From positions 1 through 64,000 of the forward strand of contig NZ_AUHD01000013.1 of the NCBI RefSeq assembly GCF_000423005.1: a stretch of 64,000 nucleotides of DNA, given 5' to 3'. Source of the stretch: Gelidibacter mesophilus DSM 14095. Its GTDB lineage: Bacteria > Bacteroidota > Bacteroidia > Flavobacteriales > Flavobacteriaceae. Made by a program: the position numbers and the translations under genes. The notes beneath the pieces are model-generated. The model had not been told where the DNA came from, searched no databases, and saw only the letters and a program-made list of their open reading frames with translations. Positions 44,439 to 52,890 of this stretch are shown in pieces. Within the stretch, counting starts at the first letter, position 1. Each line of letters opens with the position of its first letter.

Positions 44439-45254
44439 ATGGAAAGATTACCTAAAATTGCAATACCTGCAATTATTGCTGCAATTGTATTAATTATAAT
44501 ACTTGCAAAATCTGCTGTTACTGTTACTTCAGGACAAGCAGGCGTTTTATATAAAACCTTTGGCGGTGGTGTTGTAACAGATGAACCAGCTCTTGGAGAA
44601 GGTTTTCACTTGATAGCCCCTTGGAATAACGTCTTTATCTACGAGGTTAGGCAACAAGAGATTCTTGATAAAATGAGTGTACTATCTTCAAATGGATTGG
44701 ACATAAAATTAGAGGCCTCAGTTTGGTTTCAACCAGCATACGAAAGTCTTGGTAAATTACACCAAGAAAAAGGTGAAATGTATAAAGAGCGGATTCTGCT
44801 ACCAGCTATACGTTCAGCAGCAAGAAGTGTTGTAGGTCGTTATACGCCAGAGCAATTGTACTCTAGCAAGCGTGATGCCATTCAACAAGAGATTTTTGAG
44901 GAGACTCAGAAATTTGTAAAAGATCAATACATTCAGTTGAACGAAGTTTTAGTACGTGATGTCACTTTACCTTCAACAATAAAAGATGCCATAGAGCGCA
45001 AATTGAGACAAGAGCAAGAATCTTTGGAATATGAATTTAGACTGGTAACCGCTTCTAAAGAAGCAGAAAAGGTTATTATTGAGGCTCAAGGAAAGGCAGA
45101 TGCCAATAGAATCTTAAGTGCATCATTGACCGATAAGATCCTTCAGGATAAAGGTATTGAAGCTACAGTTAAACTCTCAGAATCCAATAATAGTAAAGTT
45201 ATTGTAATTGGTTCTGGAGATTCTGGTCTGCCTATTATTTTAGGAAACCAATAA
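44439..45254 (+). CDS. Prohibitin/SPFH-domain protein
   Basis: This 271-aa protein has one N-terminal membrane helix (about residues 8-25, IPAIIAAIVLIIILAKS) and a band-7/SPFH domain (about 28-215). Motifs include VTSGQAGVLYKTFGGGV, LGEGFHLIAPWN, the RSAARSVVGRYTPEQLY stretch and an alpha-helical REEQESL-like coiled coil (RKLRQEQESLEYEFRL). Prohibitin-like proteins form ring oligomers on membranes and act as scaffolds or protease partners; no protease gene is adjacent. It is the last gene before the his leader. Confidence 0.88.
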   Translation: MERLPKIAIPAIIAAIVLIIILAKSAVTVTSGQAGVLYKTFGGGVVTDEPALGEGFHLIAPWNNVFIYEVRQQEILDKMSVLSSNGLDIKLEASVWFQPAYESLGKLHQEKGEMYKERILLPAIRSAARSVVGRYTPEQLYSSKRDAIQQEIFEETQKFVKDQYIQLNEVLVRDVTLPSTIKDAIERKLRQEQESLEYEFRLVTASKEAEKVIIEAQGKADANRILSASLTDKILQDKGIEATVKLSESNNSKVIVIGSGDSGLPIILGNQ

Positions 45255-45337
45255 TAAATTATAAAATATTTATCTGTATTTTCTTAAAAAGTATTAGGAT
45301 GGTAAGATATATTTTTAAATATTTGTAAAACATAAAA

Positions 45338-45400
45338 ATGAACATGACATTTATTCAATCACATCATCACCATCATCATATTTGCACTCAAGCGAAATGA
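45338..45400 (+). CDS. hisL: His leader peptide (six consecutive His codons)
   Basis: A 20-codon frame, ATG 45338 to TGA 45400, encodes MNMTFIQS, six His (45362-45379, codons CAT CAT CAC CAT CAT CAT) and ICTQAK. It precedes an intrinsic terminator and the complete his operon, exactly the layout of a translation-controlled attenuator. The ATG lies 12 bases after an AATATTTG that is one base off the TAnnTTTG -7 consensus. When charged His-tRNA is scarce, a ribosome stalled on the His run would alter folding of the downstream RNA and prevent termination. The peptide itself probably has no other role. Confidence 0.9.
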   Translation: MNMTFIQSHHHHHHICTQAK

Positions 45401-45413
45401 AGATGTATTGAAT
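45353..45413 (+). promoter_or_regulatory. Attenuator 1:2 helix in the his leader
   Basis: ATTCAATCACATC (45353-45365), which overlaps the first His codons, can pair with GATGTATTGAAT (45402-45413), which starts just after the leader stop codon. It gives 12 base pairs with one bulged C. A ribosome stalled on the His codons would cover the first arm and free the second. A competing antiterminator pairing with the 5' arm of the terminator was not clear by eye; the only candidate is TCAAC (45418-45422) with GTTTGA (45435-45440). Confidence 0.65.
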
Positions 45414-45428
45414 AAAATCAACATATTT

Positions 45429-45460
45429 AAAACCGTTTGAGTAATCAAACGGTTTTTTTA
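45429..45460 (+). terminator. Attenuator terminator upstream of hisG
   Basis: An 11-bp stem, AAAACCGTTTG with CAAACGGTTTT, closed by the loop AGTAAT, is followed by T-rich sequence. It lies between the His leader peptide and hisG, so read-through rather than constitutive termination must occur for the operon to be expressed. Confidence 0.9.
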
Positions 45461-45529
45461 TTCTTGCCAAGGCCGGAAACTTGCCCTAAAGATTTACTCA
45501 AACAACACTTAAGTTTAATATAAAAAATA

Positions 45530-45550: not shown

Positions 45551-46408
45551 ATGAGTAAATTAAAAATAGCAGTTCAAAAATCGGGACGTTTACACGACGA
45601 TTCCATGAAAATCCTTAATGACGTAGGTATTTCCATAGACAATGGCAAAGATCAGCTTAAAGCTTCAGCCAAAAATTTTCCTTTAGAGGTGTTCTATCTT
45701 CGCAACGGTGATATTCCACAATATCTTCGGGATGGTGTGGTGGACGCCGCCATCATCGGTGAAAATATTCTGCTTGAAAAAGGTGCAGATGTATCAGTCA
45801 TCGAAAAACTTGGATTCTCAACCTGTAAAGTGTCAATCGCAGTTCCTAAATCTTTTAAATACAAAGACATAAAAGATTTGGAAGGCAAACGCATTGCGAC
45901 TTCCTATCCTAATACAGTACAACAGTTTCTTGATAAAAATAATATCAACGCACAACTACATATTATCAACGGTTCGGTTGAAATAGCACCAAATATAGGT
46001 CTTGCAGATGCTATTGTAGATATAGTTTCAAGTGGAAGTACACTCTTTAAGAACAATCTAAAAGAGGTAGAAGTCTTATTGAAATCGGAAGCTGTTCTAG
46101 CGGCATCCCCACTGATTTCTGATGAGAACGCCGCGATCCTTAAAAAACTACGATTTAGGTTTCAATCTGTTTTGAAAGGTCGCCAGTCAAAATATGTGCT
46201 TTTAAATGCACCAAATGAAAAACTCGAAAAAATTATCAGTGTACTTCCAGGAATGCGAAGTCCTACAGTACTTCCATTGGCTCAAGAAGGATGGAGTTCT
46301 ATACATTCCGTAATTAACAAGAATGAATTCTGGGAAGTTATTGACGAGCTTAAGGCCAATGGCGCCGAAGGAATATTAGTTTGTCCAATTGAAAACATGG
46401 TCATCTAA
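45551..46408 (+). CDS. hisG: ATP phosphoribosyltransferase (long form)
   Basis: This 285-aa enzyme performs the first step of histidine synthesis, condensing ATP and PRPP. It has the IAVQKSGRLHDDSMKIL start, FLRNGDIPQYLRDGVVDAAI, ATSYPNTVQQFL and the PRPP-binding DIVSSGSTLFKNNL. The C-terminal ACT-like regulatory domain (about residues 213-285, ending GAEGILVCPIENMVI) identifies the long form that is feedback-inhibited by histidine and needs no HisZ. The ATG at 45551 is preferred; a TTG/GTG 15/12 nt upstream lies in the hairpin element. Confidence 0.95.
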   Translation: MSKLKIAVQKSGRLHDDSMKILNDVGISIDNGKDQLKASAKNFPLEVFYLRNGDIPQYLRDGVVDAAIIGENILLEKGADVSVIEKLGFSTCKVSIAVPKSFKYKDIKDLEGKRIATSYPNTVQQFLDKNNINAQLHIINGSVEIAPNIGLADAIVDIVSSGSTLFKNNLKEVEVLLKSEAVLAASPLISDENAAILKKLRFRFQSVLKGRQSKYVLLNAPNEKLEKIISVLPGMRSPTVLPLAQEGWSSIHSVINKNEFWEVIDELKANGAEGILVCPIENMVI

Positions 46409-46450: not shown

Positions 46451-47737
46451 ATGCAAATTATAAAAAACCCTAATAAATCTTCTTGGTCAGCGTTGATTAA
46501 AAGACCAACCCAGTCTGTAGAAAGTATAGAAGATACTGTTGTTCAAATTTTTGACGATGTTAAAAGAAATGGTAATGTGGCCATCCAAAAATACACCGCT
46601 CTATTTGACGGGGTGGATTCAGAAGTCGTTGAAGTCTCAGAGGCTGAAATCGCATCAGCATCTAAGAACATAACGACAGATTTGAAAGATGCGATTAGAT
46701 TGGCAAAAAAAAACATAGAAACCTTTCATAAGGCTCAGGAAACAAGCAGAATTGAAGTCGAAACTATGCCAGGTGTTCACTGTTGGCAAGAAAAAAGACC
46801 AATCGAAAAAATTGGTTTGTACATTCCAGGGGGAACGGCACCATTGTTTTCAACGGTTTTAATGCTTGCCGTTCCCGCACAAATTGCGAGATGCAAAGAA
46901 ATAGTTTTATGTACGCCTCCAAATAAGAATGGAGCTATTGCCAATGAAATTTTATATGCTGCACAATTATGTGGTGTGACGAAAATTTACAAAATTGGAG
47001 GTATTCAAGCTATTGCTGCCATGACTTTTGGATCAGAAAATGTCCCACAAGTCTATAAAATTTTCGGTCCCGGAAATCAGTTTGTTACCGTAGCCAAACA
47101 ATTAGCGACAAAATACGGTGTTGCCATTGATATGCCGGCTGGTCCAAGTGAACTTTTAATAGTTGCCGATGATAGCGCAAATGCAGCGTACGTGGCATCT
47201 GATTTATTGAGTCAAGCTGAACACGGCGCTGATAGTCAAGTGATTTTGGTTTCTAATTCTGAAACTTTAATTGCTGCTGTAGAAATTGAGATAGCGTTAC
47301 AAATGGCTGTCTTATCAAGGAAATCCATGGCAGAGAAGGCTATTGAGAACTCTAAATTGATTTTAATTACAGAAGATAAAGAAGCCTTAGATTTTGTTAA
47401 TGCTTATGGTCCGGAGCACTTCATCGTGTGTTCTCAAAATGAAGCTTTGTTTGTTGATGGCATTAGCAATGCAGGCTCTGTTTTTGTGGGCAATTACACC
47501 CCTGAAAGTGCGGGCGACTACGCTTCGGGCACCAATCATACCTTGCCAACCAACGGTTTTAGTAAATCGTATTCTGGTGTCAATTTAGATAGTTTTTTGA
47601 AAAGCATGACCTTTCAGAAAATAAACAAAGAAGGCTTGTTAAATATTGGAAAAACAATAGAACTCATGGCCCATGCCGAAGGTTTGCAAGCACACAAAAA
47701 CGCAGTTTCCATACGATTAAATGATTTAGAGCAATGA
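46451..47737 (+). CDS. hisD: Histidinol dehydrogenase
   Basis: This 428-aa Zn enzyme oxidises histidinol to histidine with two NAD. Motifs include the KRPIEKIGLYIPGGTAPLFS stretch, GPGNQFVTVAKQLA, DMPAGPSELLIVAD, LLSQAEHGADSQVILVS (Zn-binding Gln/His), GPEHFIV and ASGTNHTLPT. The stop overlaps the start of hisC (ATGA), so the two are translationally coupled. Length matches the family. Confidence 0.96.
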   Translation: MQIIKNPNKSSWSALIKRPTQSVESIEDTVVQIFDDVKRNGNVAIQKYTALFDGVDSEVVEVSEAEIASASKNITTDLKDAIRLAKKNIETFHKAQETSRIEVETMPGVHCWQEKRPIEKIGLYIPGGTAPLFSTVLMLAVPAQIARCKEIVLCTPPNKNGAIANEILYAAQLCGVTKIYKIGGIQAIAAMTFGSENVPQVYKIFGPGNQFVTVAKQLATKYGVAIDMPAGPSELLIVADDSANAAYVASDLLSQAEHGADSQVILVSNSETLIAAVEIEIALQMAVLSRKSMAEKAIENSKLILITEDKEALDFVNAYGPEHFIVCSQNEALFVDGISNAGSVFVGNYTPESAGDYASGTNHTLPTNGFSKSYSGVNLDSFLKSMTFQKINKEGLLNIGKTIELMAHAEGLQAHKNAVSIRLNDLEQ

Positions 47738-48771
47738 ACATTCAAGATTTAATTAGACCTTCAATCAAAGCAATAAAGCCTTATTCTTCAGCTCGCGACG
47801 AATTTAAAGGTAGTAAAGACAACTTGATTTTCCTGGACGCTAATGAAAACCCTTATGATAATGGAGTCAATCGCTATCCTGATCCACAACAAAGTGAATT
47901 AAAAGCCCTAATCTCTAAAATCAAAGACGTTCCTTCAGAATGTATCCTTTTGGGGAATGGGAGTGATGAAGTGTTGGATTTACTGATTAGAATGTTCTGC
48001 GAGCCAACTAAGGATAATATTTTGATCCTTCCACCAACTTATGGTATGTATGAGGTCTTGGCAAACGTCAACGCGGTTGAGACTATTAAAATAAATCTTT
48101 CTGAGCCTATGTTTCAGCCAAAACCGACCTCAATTTTGGATGACGCAACGATTAACAGTAAATTATTGTTTTTATGCTCACCAAATAATCCAACAGGAAA
48201 TTGCTTTGAGACTTCCACTATCGCGTTTTTGCTTGATAATTTTAAGGGCATCGTGGTGATCGACGAGGCTTATATTGATTTTTCCAAACAGGAAAGTTGG
48301 CTGAATCAATTGTCAAAATATCCAAATTTGGTGGTTACGCAAACCTTGTCCAAAGCGTATGGAATGGCTGGGATTCGATTGGGGATTTGCTATGCTTCCG
48401 CAGAAATCATTTCAGTTTTAAATAAAATAAAGCCTCCTTATAATATCAATGAACTCACGCAAATTAAAGCGATTGAAAGTTTAGGTGACTTAACATTGGT
48501 AAATAATCAAATTAGCTGTTTATTAGAAGAAAAAGACGCTTTAATTAAAGCATTTGATGAAGTTTATTTTATTGAAAAAATCTTTCCATCTGACGCTAAT
48601 TTTGTGATGGTAAAAGTTGATGACGCCAATACACGTTACCAACAATTGATTGACAACGGCATTGTAATTCGCAATAGAACCTCACAACCTTTGTGTGACA
48701 ATTGCTTAAGATTTACCATTGGAACAAAACAAGAAAACGACATACTGATTAAAATTTTGAAAACTTTATAA
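47734..48771 (+). CDS. hisC: Histidinol-phosphate aminotransferase
   Basis: This 345-aa PLP enzyme of fold type I converts imidazole-acetol phosphate to histidinol phosphate. It shows FLDANENPYD at the N-terminus, LGNGSDEVLDLLIR, CSPNNPTGN, VVIDEAYIDFS and the PLP-lysine motif QTLSKAYGMAGIRLG (Lys near residue 211). It starts with a 4-nt overlap with hisD and precedes hisB by 12 nt. Confidence 0.95.
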   Translation: MNIQDLIRPSIKAIKPYSSARDEFKGSKDNLIFLDANENPYDNGVNRYPDPQQSELKALISKIKDVPSECILLGNGSDEVLDLLIRMFCEPTKDNILILPPTYGMYEVLANVNAVETIKINLSEPMFQPKPTSILDDATINSKLLFLCSPNNPTGNCFETSTIAFLLDNFKGIVVIDEAYIDFSKQESWLNQLSKYPNLVVTQTLSKAYGMAGIRLGICYASAEIISVLNKIKPPYNINELTQIKAIESLGDLTLVNNQISCLLEEKDALIKAFDEVYFIEKIFPSDANFVMVKVDDANTRYQQLIDNGIVIRNRTSQPLCDNCLRFTIGTKQENDILIKILKTL

Positions 48772-48783
48772 CCGCTATATGCT

Positions 48784-49905
48784 ATGAGGAAAAAAGTATT
48801 ATTTATAGACCGTGATGGAACTATTATTATAGAACCGGAAGATTACCAAATTGACAGTTTTGAGAAGCTTTTGTTTTATCCTAAAGTGTTTCAATATTTA
48901 GGTAAAATAGCCAGAGAATTGGATTATGAAATTGTTTTGGTAACCAATCAAGATGGGCTTGGCACTAATTCTTTTCCGGAAGATACCTTTTGGCCAGTTC
49001 ATAATTTCATGATTGAAACCTTCAAATCTGAAGGCATCGAGTTTAACGAGCAATTCATTGACCGCACTTTTGACAAAGACAATGCACCAACACGAAAACC
49101 AAGAACCGGTTTGTTGACCCAATTCTTTTCTGAGACCTATGATTTGGAGAATTCCTTTGTGATTGGTGATCGGTTGACCGATGTTGAATTGGCTAAAAAC
49201 CTGGGTGCTAAGGCAGTTTTCATGAATTCGACCTCGGATAATGAACCCTCTACTGAAAATTTTCGTAAGTATATTGCACTGGAATCTACCGATTGGGAAC
49301 AGATATACAATTTCTTGAAAGCAGCCGATAGAACGGCCAATCTTAAACGCAACACCAATGAAACCAAAATTTCGATTAACTTAAATTTGGATGGAACGGG
49401 CGTAAGTAACATTGATACAGGAATTGCGTTTTTTGATCATATGTTGGACCAAATTGCCCGTCATGGACAATTGGATTTGGATATTAAGGTAAAAGGGGAT
49501 TTGGAAGTTGATGAGCACCATACCATTGAGGATACCGGCATTGCTTTAGGTGAAGTTTTTGCTAATGCTTTAGGGAATAAGCTCGGTGTGGAACGTTACG
49601 GGTTTTGTTTGCCGATGGATGATTGTCTGGCGCAAGTGGCCATTGATTTTGGAGGACGAAATTGGTTAGTTTGGGATGCGGAATTTAAACGAGAGATGAT
49701 CGGGAAGATGCCAACAGAAATGTTTTTTCATTTTTTTAAATCGTTTACTGATGGCGCCAGATGTAATTTGAATATCAAAGCAGAAGGTGAGAATGAACAC
49801 CATAAAATTGAAGCTATTTTTAAAGCTTTTGCCAAATCTATTAAGATGGCAATAAAGCGCGATATGGATAAAATGATTTTGCCTTCCACTAAAGGTGTCC
49901 TATAA
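48784..49905 (+). CDS. hisB: Bifunctional histidinol-phosphatase / imidazoleglycerol-phosphate dehydratase
   Basis: This 373-aa fusion starts with a HAD-type phosphatase (about residues 1-165; [15 protein letters not shown] with the DxD catalytic pair, [37 protein letters not shown]). An IGP dehydratase follows (about 180-373), with [45 protein letters not shown] and [15 protein letters not shown] supplying the Mn ligands. It thus performs steps 6 and 8. The HisNB fusion is known from gamma-proteobacteria, some Campylobacter and Bacteroidota. Confidence 0.96.
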
Positions 49906-49983
49906 TTTAAGAATCAAATTTTTAGTACCAAAATCCAATACTTAGTTTGGAATTTGGGATTTGGAATTTTAAAAATGATTTCA

Positions 49984-50580
49984 ATGAATATTGTAATAAT
50001 AGATTATGGTGCCGGCAATACTAAAAGTGTCCAATTTGCCTGTAACCGATTGGGATATAACCCTATTTTGAGTAATATACCAGATGTAATTAGTTCTGCA
50101 GATAAAGTAATCTTTCCGGGTGTGGGGCAAGCAGGTAACGCCATGGAAATGCTTAAAAATTCACAGTTGGACTTGACCATCCCTCAACTGAAACAGCCTG
50201 TTTTGGGCATCTGTCTAGGAATGCAATTGCTCTGTAATTCTACAGAAGAAGGTGCAACCAAAGGCTTAGGCATTTTTGATGTGGATGTCAAACGCTTTTC
50301 CAATCAGAAAAAAGTTCCACAGATGGGTTGGAACACCATTTTTAATCTTGAATCAAATTTATTTGAAGGGATAAAAAATGATGCTTATATGTATCTTGTG
50401 CACAGTTATTTTGCAGAATTGGGCAAACATACCATTTCGCAAACCAAGTATGGCGTAAATTATAGCTCGGCACTCAAAAAAGACAATTTTTACGGGGTAC
50501 AATTCCATCCAGAAAAAAGTAGCACTGTGGGAGCAGAAGTATTGAGGAATTTCCTCAATTTAGGAAATCTAGAATCATAG
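49984..50580 (+). CDS. hisH: Imidazole glycerol phosphate synthase glutaminase subunit
   Basis: This 198-aa class I amidotransferase supplies ammonia to HisF. It has VIIDYGAGNTKSVQFA, FPGVGQAGNAM, the nucleophile Cys in LGICLGMQLLC and the catalytic His/Glu in GVQFHPEKSS. The ATG at 49984 (MNIVIIDYGAG) is the family start; in-frame upstream codons to 49954 do not belong. It is 78 bp after hisB. Confidence 0.95.
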   Translation: MNIVIIDYGAGNTKSVQFACNRLGYNPILSNIPDVISSADKVIFPGVGQAGNAMEMLKNSQLDLTIPQLKQPVLGICLGMQLLCNSTEEGATKGLGIFDVDVKRFSNQKKVPQMGWNTIFNLESNLFEGIKNDAYMYLVHSYFAELGKHTISQTKYGVNYSSALKKDNFYGVQFHPEKSSTVGAEVLRNFLNLGNLES

Positions 50581-50600
50581 ATCATAAACAGTAAAATAGT

Positions 50601-51335
50601 ATGAGAATAATACCCGCAATAGATATCATAGACGGCAAATGTGTACGTTTGACGAAAGGCGATTATAGTACAAAAAAAATCTACAATGAAAATCCGCTTG
50701 AAGTTGCCAAACAATTTGAAGCTTCTGGAATTGAATATTTACACCTCGTCGATCTCGATGGCGCTAAGGCAAAACAAATAATCAACTACAAGGTATTGGA
50801 GCAAATCGCTTCAAAAACAAGTTTGAAAATTGATTTTGGTGGCGGCCTCAAATCTGATGAGGACCTGCATATTGCCTTCAACTGTGGCGCCAAACAAATT
50901 ACTGGTGGAAGTATTGCCGTAAACGACCATCGTACTTTTGAGTCTTGGCTCGAAAAATATGGAACAACTAAGATTATTTTGGGAGCGGATTGCAATAACA
51001 GGAAAATTGCCATTAGCGGTTGGCAAGAAGAAAGCAGTTTAGAAGTTATTACGTTCATTAAAAATTACCAACGCCGAAAAGTGCAATACGTTATTTGCAC
51101 GGATATTGCAAAGGATGGTATGTTGGAAGGACCTTCATTTGAGCTTTATAAGGAAATTATCCAAGAGTGTTCAAACACGAGCTCCGATCAATCGATAAAA
51201 CTTATTGCTTCTGGTGGAATTTCGCACATTGATGAGCTTCCCAAACTAAAAGAATTGGGCTGTGAAGGGGTTATTATTGGAAAAGCCATTTATGAAAACA
51301 AGATCAGTTTGCAGGAATTGGAGCGGTTTTTTTAG
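50601..51335 (+). CDS. hisA: ProFAR isomerase
   Basis: This 244-aa TIM-barrel enzyme catalyses the Amadori rearrangement of ProFAR to PRFAR. It shows [20 protein letters not shown] (catalytic Asp in the first strand), [37 protein letters not shown] (second catalytic Asp) and the phosphate-binding [13 protein letters not shown]. It is the paralogue of HisF, which follows 83 bp later. Confidence 0.96.
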
Positions 51336-51418
51336 ACAATTATCCAATTGTTGATATCTTATTCCTATTAAATCTTATTGAAAACCTCATTTAAATCGCT
51401 GTTGTAACAGTAAATATT

Positions 51419-52174
51419 ATGCTTACTAAACGAATAATTCCTTGTTTGGACATTAAAAACGGACGTACTGTCAAAGGCATCAATTTCGTCAACCTCGTTG
51501 ATGCTGGTGACCCTGTGGTTTTAGCCAAACAATATGCTGAAAAAGGTGCTGACGAATTGGTGTTTCTTGATATTTCAGCAACTTTAGAAGGGCGAAAGAC
51601 CACTTTGGAAATGGTATTGAAAGTGGCAGAGCAAGTCAATATTCCTTTTACGGTGGGTGGCGGAATTTCATCTATTGAAGATGTCGATTTGCTTTTAAAA
51701 TCTGGCGCAGATAAAGTCTCTATCAATTCATCCGCAATTAAGCGGCCTGAACTGATTAATGAACTGTCTGATAAATTTGGAAGCCAATGTGTGGTGGTTG
51801 CCATAGATGCTAAACAAATCGATGGACAGTGGAGAGTGCATTTAGCTGGTGGCAGTATCCCAACATCCTTGGACCTTTTTGAATGGGCGAAAGAAGTAGA
51901 ATTAAGAGGCGCGGGTGAAATTCTTTTTACATCTATGGACCACGATGGCACTAAAGATGGTTTTGCCAACGAAGCGTTGGCAAAATTGTCAACGGACTTA
52001 AACATTCCTATTATAGCTTCAGGTGGTGCCGGAACAATGCAGCATTTTGTGGACACCTTTAAAATAGGGAAATCTGATGCAGCTCTTGCCGCAAGTGTAT
52101 TTCATTTTGGTGAAATAGAAATCAAGGATTTGAAAGCAGAATTAAGAAAAAATAATATAGAAGTGAGAATTTAA
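51419..52174 (+). CDS. hisF: Imidazole glycerol phosphate synthase cyclase subunit
   Basis: This 251-aa TIM-barrel protein uses ammonia from HisH to form IGP and AICAR. It has [20 protein letters not shown] (catalytic Asp11), [24 protein letters not shown], the [13 protein letters not shown] stretch, [14 protein letters not shown] (second catalytic Asp) and [15 protein letters not shown]. Length is as expected. Confidence 0.96.
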
Positions 52175-52293
52175 AAAAATAGCCACTAATTCACGAATGC
52201 TTTTCTTATGTATGATCAAAATCCAAGGTTGCATATTTGTTAAATCAATCGTGAGCCATTTAAAATTAGAATCAGGACAAAATCAAAATAACC

Positions 52294-52890
52294 ATGAATT
52301 TAAAATATAACTCAGATGGCTTAATTCCGGCCATAATCCAAGATGCTTCAACTAAAAATGTCCTGATGTTGGGCTATATGAATGCCGAGGCCTTCCAGAA
52401 AACCCAAGAAACTAAAAAAGTTACTTTTTATAGCCGCAGCAAACAACGTTTATGGATTAAAGGAGAAGAAAGCGGTAATTTCCTCAATTTGGTTGCATTA
52501 AAAGTGGATTGTGATAACGACACTTTATTGATTCAGGCAAATCCACAAGGTCCAACTTGCCATAAAGGAACGGACACTTGTTGGGATGAACCGAATGTCT
52601 CTAATTTCGGTTTTATTTCTAAGCTGGAAGCAACTATAGAAGAGCGGCGCACGAATGCTAAAGCTGAAGAATCGTATGTGGCATATCTATTTGCAAAAGG
52701 CATTAACAAATTGGCTCAAAAAGTAGGTGAGGAGGCAGTAGAAGTGGTTATAGAGGCTAAAGACAATAATGATGATTTATTCTTAAATGAGAGCGCTGAT
52801 TTGCTGTTTCATTATTTGATGCTGCTCCAAGCCAAAGGTTTTAAGTTGGAGGATATTGAAACGGTCCTCAAAAACCGTGAGAAAAAATGA
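52294..52890 (+). CDS. hisIE: Bifunctional phosphoribosyl-AMP cyclohydrolase / phosphoribosyl-ATP pyrophosphatase
   Basis: This 198-aa fusion performs steps 2 and 3. The HisI half (residues 1-105) has VLMLGYMNAEAFQKT, TFYSRSKQRLWIKGEESGN and the metal-binding VDCDNDTLLIQANPQGPTCH and TDTCW. The HisE half (about 110-198) has KLAQKVGEEAVEVVIEAKD and the ESADLLFHYLMLL helix. It is the last gene of the operon, 119 bp after hisF. Confidence 0.95.
   Translation: MNLKYNSDGLIPAIIQDASTKNVLMLGYMNAEAFQKTQETKKVTFYSRSKQRLWIKGEESGNFLNLVALKVDCDNDTLLIQANPQGPTCHKGTDTCWDEPNVSNFGFISKLEATIEERRTNAKAEESYVAYLFAKGINKLAQKVGEEAVEVVIEAKDNNDDLFLNESADLLFHYLMLLQAKGFKLEDIETVLKNREKK

Follow-up and report, generated by a model that had tools for sequence, protein, structure and literature searches.

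A candidate ribosome-mediated attenuator of the his operon in Gelidibacter mesophilus, with a covarying segment downstream of the terminator

Ribosome-position attenuation needs a ribosome that closely trails RNA polymerase, and in the textbook his attenuator of the enterobacterial type the 1:2 helix shares an arm with the antiterminator. Ribosome-mediated attenuators of amino-acid operons in Bacteroidetes/Chlorobi were reportedly predicted by comparative genomics by Vitreschak et al. in 2004. A further RNA of this group, the Bacteroid-trp RNA (RF01692), is presumably a trp attenuator. Like the element analyzed here it is a cis-regulatory RNA of Bacteroidetes associated with an amino-acid operon, although the amino acid is a different one (PMC2864571). 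The 2021 transcriptome of Flavobacterium psychrophilum (PMC9723704) describes clues that amino-acid operons are attenuated through leader peptides, and for hisG a structured 5' element that is conserved in Flavobacteriaceae and has no Rfam match. The hisG element is very probably the same as ours, and the kind of element is therefore already known, while its anatomy, antiterminator, covariation, and the segment termed S5 below are not given in those passages. A sequence-only reading of the present locus had called such attenuation far less studied in Bacteroidota; this is fair as a general statement but leaves out that clues to such attenuation and the hisG element had already been reported in F. 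psychrophilum.

The window, that is, the whole stretch of DNA analyzed, comprises 64,000 nucleotides of Gelidibacter mesophilus DSM 14095 (GCF_000423005.1; NZ_AUHD01000013.1, positions 1-64,000, forward strand). No match to RF01692 is found in it at the gathering threshold. The only plausible sub-threshold Rfam match is RF00514 (His_leader), which scores 26.8 bits against a gathering score of 49 bits (E 0.02 in 401 bases), and at the gathering threshold RF00514 matches neither the window nor 20 relatives. Both elements have a run of His codons, a 1:2 helix, and a terminator before hisG. They differ in that the antiterminator arm lies here in the last codons of the leader, the 1:2 helix encloses this arm rather than sharing one with the antiterminator, and S5 is additional. 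Rfam does not contain the element, which would thus be worth adding as a new family. The Rfam comparisons also bear on a T-box or another leader that senses tRNA or a ligand directly in place of a translating ribosome. Such a leader would likewise precede an amino-acid operon and end in a terminator, but no T-box or riboswitch is matched at the gathering threshold in the window and 20 relatives, and none is among the matches listed in a permissive Rfam scan. Furthermore, the leader is only about 130 nt long and its conserved parts are codons, which makes direct sensing extremely unlikely.

As the sequence-only reading had proposed, the complete his operon, hisGDCBHAF(IE), lies 3' of the leader, and every gene is called by NCBIfam equivalog models. 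The first gene, hisG (45551-46408, forward strand, start region ATGAGTAAATT), scores 188.8 bits with TIGR00070 (cut-off 75.75), and hisD, hisC, the bifunctional hisB, hisH, hisA, hisF, and hisIE follow on the same strand (46451-52890). A short His-rich leader frame stands directly 5' of these genes. The claimed 20-codon frame, MNMTFIQSHHHHHHICTQAK, is indeed present and runs from an ATG at 45338 to a TGA stop at 45398-45400, but it probably opens six bases too early. Homologous leaders begin at the Met of 45344 with MTFIQ, and for this reason the second ATG is probably the start, giving a leader peptide gene of 18 codons (MTFIQSHHHHHHICTQAK, 45344-45400, forward strand), with the in-frame ATG at 45338 as the alternative. 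The six consecutive His codons at 45362-45379 (forward strand, CATCATCACCATCATCAT), the putative sensing element, are present as described, and 3-6 His codons are kept in relatives. A stretch of six successive CAY codons is found a single time in the window (0 in 100 shuffles) and nowhere else in the 4.43-Mb genome. The region 45320-45465 folds well below shuffled sequence (z = -4.7), and the element as a whole is far from what chance would produce.

A candidate -7 promoter box, AATATTTG (45318-45325, forward strand), departs by one mismatch from TAnnTTTG, the consensus taken from PMC9723704. In most of 160 unique leaders a TTTG is located 18-26 nt (mostly 20-23) 5' of the leader start, and 155 of them have some TTTG within 45 nt. 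In F. johnsoniae, translation initiates without a Shine-Dalgarno sequence, and structure together with A at -3 and -6 matter (PMC6847099); the leader start agrees with this pattern. The preceding gene (44439-45254, same strand, 271 aa) looks prohibitin/slipin-like by eye, and its product has no NCBIfam match at 1e-20. It appears to adjoin the leader in a distant relative (L161) as well, which suggests a conserved gene order.

HisG served as the query for collecting upstream regions. The family was represented by 149 genomes, hisG being present in 123, and 80 loci of named genomes were added, the nearest being Gelidibacter salicanalis and G. algens; removal of duplicates left about 160 distinct leaders. 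A His-run leader is found directly 5' of hisG in nearly every uncut flavobacterial upstream region, the exceptions being mostly cut contigs. The relatives keep the order His-run leader, terminator, hisG, with 17-18 codons as the norm and the consensus MTFIQLHHHHFHTCTQA(S/R/K/N). Loss of the His run and terminator in close relatives, named beforehand as an observation that would speak against attenuation, is not seen; these two features and the 1:2 helix persist in relatives both close and distant. When 72 divergent leaders were used to build a covariance model, the window was recovered at E 4e-21, with no second true copy elsewhere in its genome. Across the order, most Flavobacteriaceae and members of several other families give strong matches to the model; across the phylum the matches are few and distant, lie 5' of hisG where a leader is seen, and in some cases have quite different letters. 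Other matches in this genome (E 0.004 and weaker) proved, where inspected, to be ordinary terminators without leader peptides, and the same holds for weak matches in distant genomes without hisG (L222-L224 and L232-L235).

An intrinsic terminator separates the leader from hisG. Its 5' arm, T5 (AAAACCGTTTGA, 45429-45440), is common to the antiterminator, terminator, and S5 pairings; a GTAA loop follows (45441-45444), then the 3' arm TCAAACGGTTTT (45445-45456) and a T-rich tract that extends to 45463, all on the forward strand. The stem had been given as 11 bp but measures 12 bp (45429-45440 with 45445-45456) before the T run, whereas the 28 nt stated between leader stop and terminator are correct. 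Over the 72 divergent leaders 98.5% of the terminator cells are paired, and six pairs are changed on both sides.

The 1:2 helix of the sequence-only reading is real but longer than the 12 bp described. Its 15 bp are interrupted by a single bulge: 45350-45359 and 45361-45365 pair with 45402-45416, so that segment 1 occupies 45350-45365 and segment 2 occupies 45402-45416 (both forward strand). Covariance of the pairing arms, which had been suggested as a check, was assessed by comparing native with swapped arms over disjoint pairs of near relatives, with distances computed over the 90 bases at the 5' end of hisG. Such contrasts guard against shared ancestry approximately, and they were used because a tree-based independent-pairs test, applied to one loop position, yielded 2 pairs and thus too few changes. 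The native 1:2 helix wins in 42 pairs and the swapped in 14 (p=2e-4), and none of 5000 permutations over divergent leaders, a procedure that ignores ancestry, is as good as the native arrangement. The helix encloses the His codons and the antiterminator arm, and it can therefore act as a protector that favors termination when the leader is untranslated; the pairing is present, and its effect on termination is predicted from the fold. In the antiterminator state segment 2 would refold into a local hairpin (45401-45428) 3' of the stop codon, for which the near-relative contrast (24 vs 15) shows no significant covariation.

The switch itself was missed by the sequence-only reading: the antiterminator arm is inside the last codons of the leader. 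This arm, ACTCAAGCG (45386-45394, forward strand; Thr-Gln-Ala codons), pairs with 45434-45442, the Gln-Ala codons CTCAAGCG (45387-45394) matching CGUUUGAG of the terminator 5' arm. The antiterminator excludes the terminator and is placed such that the position of a ribosome would decide between them. In the 72 divergent leaders 89% of its cells are paired, as against 18-47% when the arms are slid. Spacing was counted over 117 leaders selected because they have the arm motif. The distance from arm to stop is 11 nt in all 117, and that from the last His of the main run to the start of the arm is 16 nt in 112, unlike the spacer to the terminator, which varies. Such fixed spacing is what ribosome position requires: the arm would be exposed while a ribosome occupies a His codon and covered once it has reached the stop. 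When the His region is masked and the 3' arm of the terminator (T3) is still to be transcribed, the predicted fold contains the antiterminator in 133/133 leaders chosen for the arm motif; for the untranslated leader it does so in only 52 of these 133. The window itself is predicted to form the antiterminator in the stalled state (-15.4 kcal/mol), the terminator with the ribosome at the stop (-14.7 kcal/mol), and the 1:2 helix plus terminator when untranslated (-32.2 kcal/mol).

Several leaders keep the antiterminator pairing with changed letters. L151 pairs CAGGTG with CATCTG, and L170 and L171 pair CAG with CTG; the far relatives L220, L219, and L221 pair CCAGGCG with CGCCTGG, TGCGCCGG with CCGGCGTA, and GTGTCGG with CCGGCAC, respectively. 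The helix is weak or broken in L134, L162, L165, L218, and L230. The near-relative contrast between native and swapped antiterminator arms (15 vs 12) is not significant because the helix is nearly invariant within the family, and the case for the antiterminator as judged from sequence is thus built on its invariance and fixed spacing together with a few compensations in distant leaders. In L003, L008, and L135 a stop stands in place of the Gln codon, having arisen by separate changes, while the RNA pairing persists through G-U. These three leaders argue that RNA, not peptide, is conserved, and the conserved Gln-Ala codons accordingly seem to be kept for the RNA. They also weigh against reading the short frame as the gene of a functional peptide, His-rich and metal-binding, and the terminator as that of the preceding gene. 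The peptide sequence is conserved and a same-strand gene does end at 45254, as that reading would have it; yet the Gln-to-stop changes truncate the peptide, the leader stays linked to hisG with both the 1:2 and the antiterminator pairing conserved, and a promoter-like box stands just 5' of the leader. We consider a functional peptide very improbable.

Taken as a whole, the comparative evidence strongly supports the earlier identification of a ribosome-sensing histidine attenuator, with the antiterminator as the part that model lacked. We assign a probability of roughly 0.9 to the locus being a ribosome-mediated transcription attenuator of the his operon, in which stalling, termination efficiency, and the response to histidine are what we infer from the conserved arrangement. 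RNA polymerase would make the leader and a ribosome would translate it. When charged His-tRNA is scarce, the ribosome would stall on the His codons and mask the 5' arm of the 1:2 helix, leaving the Gln-Ala codons CTCAAGCG free to pair with CGTTTGAG of the terminator 5' arm; no terminator would form, and polymerase would read into hisG. When His-tRNA is plentiful, the ribosome would reach the stop just behind CTCAAGCG and cover the arm, which lets the terminator form. Without translation of the leader, the antiterminator arm would be enclosed by the 1:2 helix and termination would be favored.

A locked-spacing his attenuator across Flavobacteriales, together with Trp and Phe leaders in the same genome as the window, amounts to indirect evidence for transcription-translation coupling in Bacteroidota. 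The ribosomes of this phylum do without the Shine-Dalgarno sequence, and the leader offers a ready reporter for coupling.

The unexpected part, outside the classical attenuation model, is the covarying segment S5 (TTTACTCAAAC, 45493-45503, forward strand), which is complementary to 45435-45444, a stretch of T5 and the terminator loop, and in this genome to the hisG start as well. Native T5:S5 combinations are better than swapped ones in 58 near-relative pairs and worse in 6 (p=9e-12), the reversed and the other-arm control each coming out close to even. The swap test applied to 65 divergent leaders gives z=-10.6, and the reversed control shows nothing. In the region of the terminator loop, all four positions tested after GAG/GTTTGAG covary with S5 (0/5000 permutations each, which again take no account of ancestry); in the window the covarying loop letters are GTAA. 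S5 is also found in other families of the order, and its core is usually 22-23 nt before the hisG start, compared with 54 nt in this genome. What is new here is S5, which covaries with T5 and the loop, can pair with the hisG start, and is absent from trp and phe attenuators. The notion of S5 as a general flavobacterial attenuator feature was rejected (mean z of -0.1 for trp and 0.2 for phe, vs 2.8 for his). A second notion, that S5 is kept mainly for matching the hisG start, was also rejected, as S5 tracks the terminator loop where the hisG start is unchanged.

S5 is made after the terminator; therefore it can have no cis influence on the termination decision and must act on readthrough mRNA, where it would possibly affect hisG translation. 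In the minimum free energy fold of the readthrough RNA, 45491-45500, made up of S5 and preceding bases, forms a 10-bp helix with 45552-45561 in the hisG start codon region. The potential of S5 to pair with the hisG start in part of the clade, the window included, suggests, as a modeled possibility, a translational gate: added to attenuation, S5 would hide the hisG start unless it is itself paired with T5 and the loop. Such a gate would agree with the strong T5:S5 covariation, with the complementarity of S5 or adjacent bases to the hisG start in many species, and with the window's readthrough fold, in which the start codon is paired to S5. TTTACTC is present in 42/99 genomes with ATGAGTAAA starts vs 1/54 others, and enforcing T5:S5 raises the predicted accessibility of the start from 0.56 to 0.67. 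A contrast between hisG start and spacer (36 vs 13, p=0.001) should be taken as suggestive because several contrasts were run. Against the gate, folding predicts the terminator hairpin over T5:S5 (P 0.80 vs 0.15), and in the starved state T5 would be held by the leader, leaving S5 free to block hisG, which makes the histidine logic doubtful. Moreover, pairing with the hisG start is clear only in part of the clade, and the distance between S5 and hisG varies (usually -23, here -54). With the predicted balance favoring the terminator hairpin and the histidine logic not clear, a translational layer is a tentative proposal, possible though unlikely. The fuller version, a two-layer switch in which T5 and the loop would be read first by the Gln-Ala codons (transcription) and then by S5 (hisG translation, in cis) under the same histidine signal, is in our judgment rather unlikely.

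S5 might instead, and again in addition to attenuation, serve as the site on his mRNA at which leader RNA acts in trans after termination and release. Such RNA would contain the arm and loop complementary to S5, and attenuator-derived RNAs that act in trans have been described in the literature (rnTrpL). The complementary arm would, however, be hidden in the terminator hairpin, and cis pairing accounts for the covariation equally well; we regard an action in trans as improbable.

Other amino-acid leaders were sought in the same genome. No candidate Ilv leader is seen 5' of ilvD in the window's genome, and scattered ones occur in relatives. A trp attenuator candidate (L247; G000:C4, upstream of 258368, minus strand) consists of a Trp leader, MYTILNHTWWWNFSKQHS, and a terminator 5' of trpE, and is conserved in relatives. 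The phe attenuator candidate (L282; G000:C5, upstream of 304146) has a Phe leader, MKTINYTYHSLFYFFFSKGNETSYV, 5' of pheA and a terminator, and its CGAGACTT arm inside the leader pairs with the 5' arm of that terminator.
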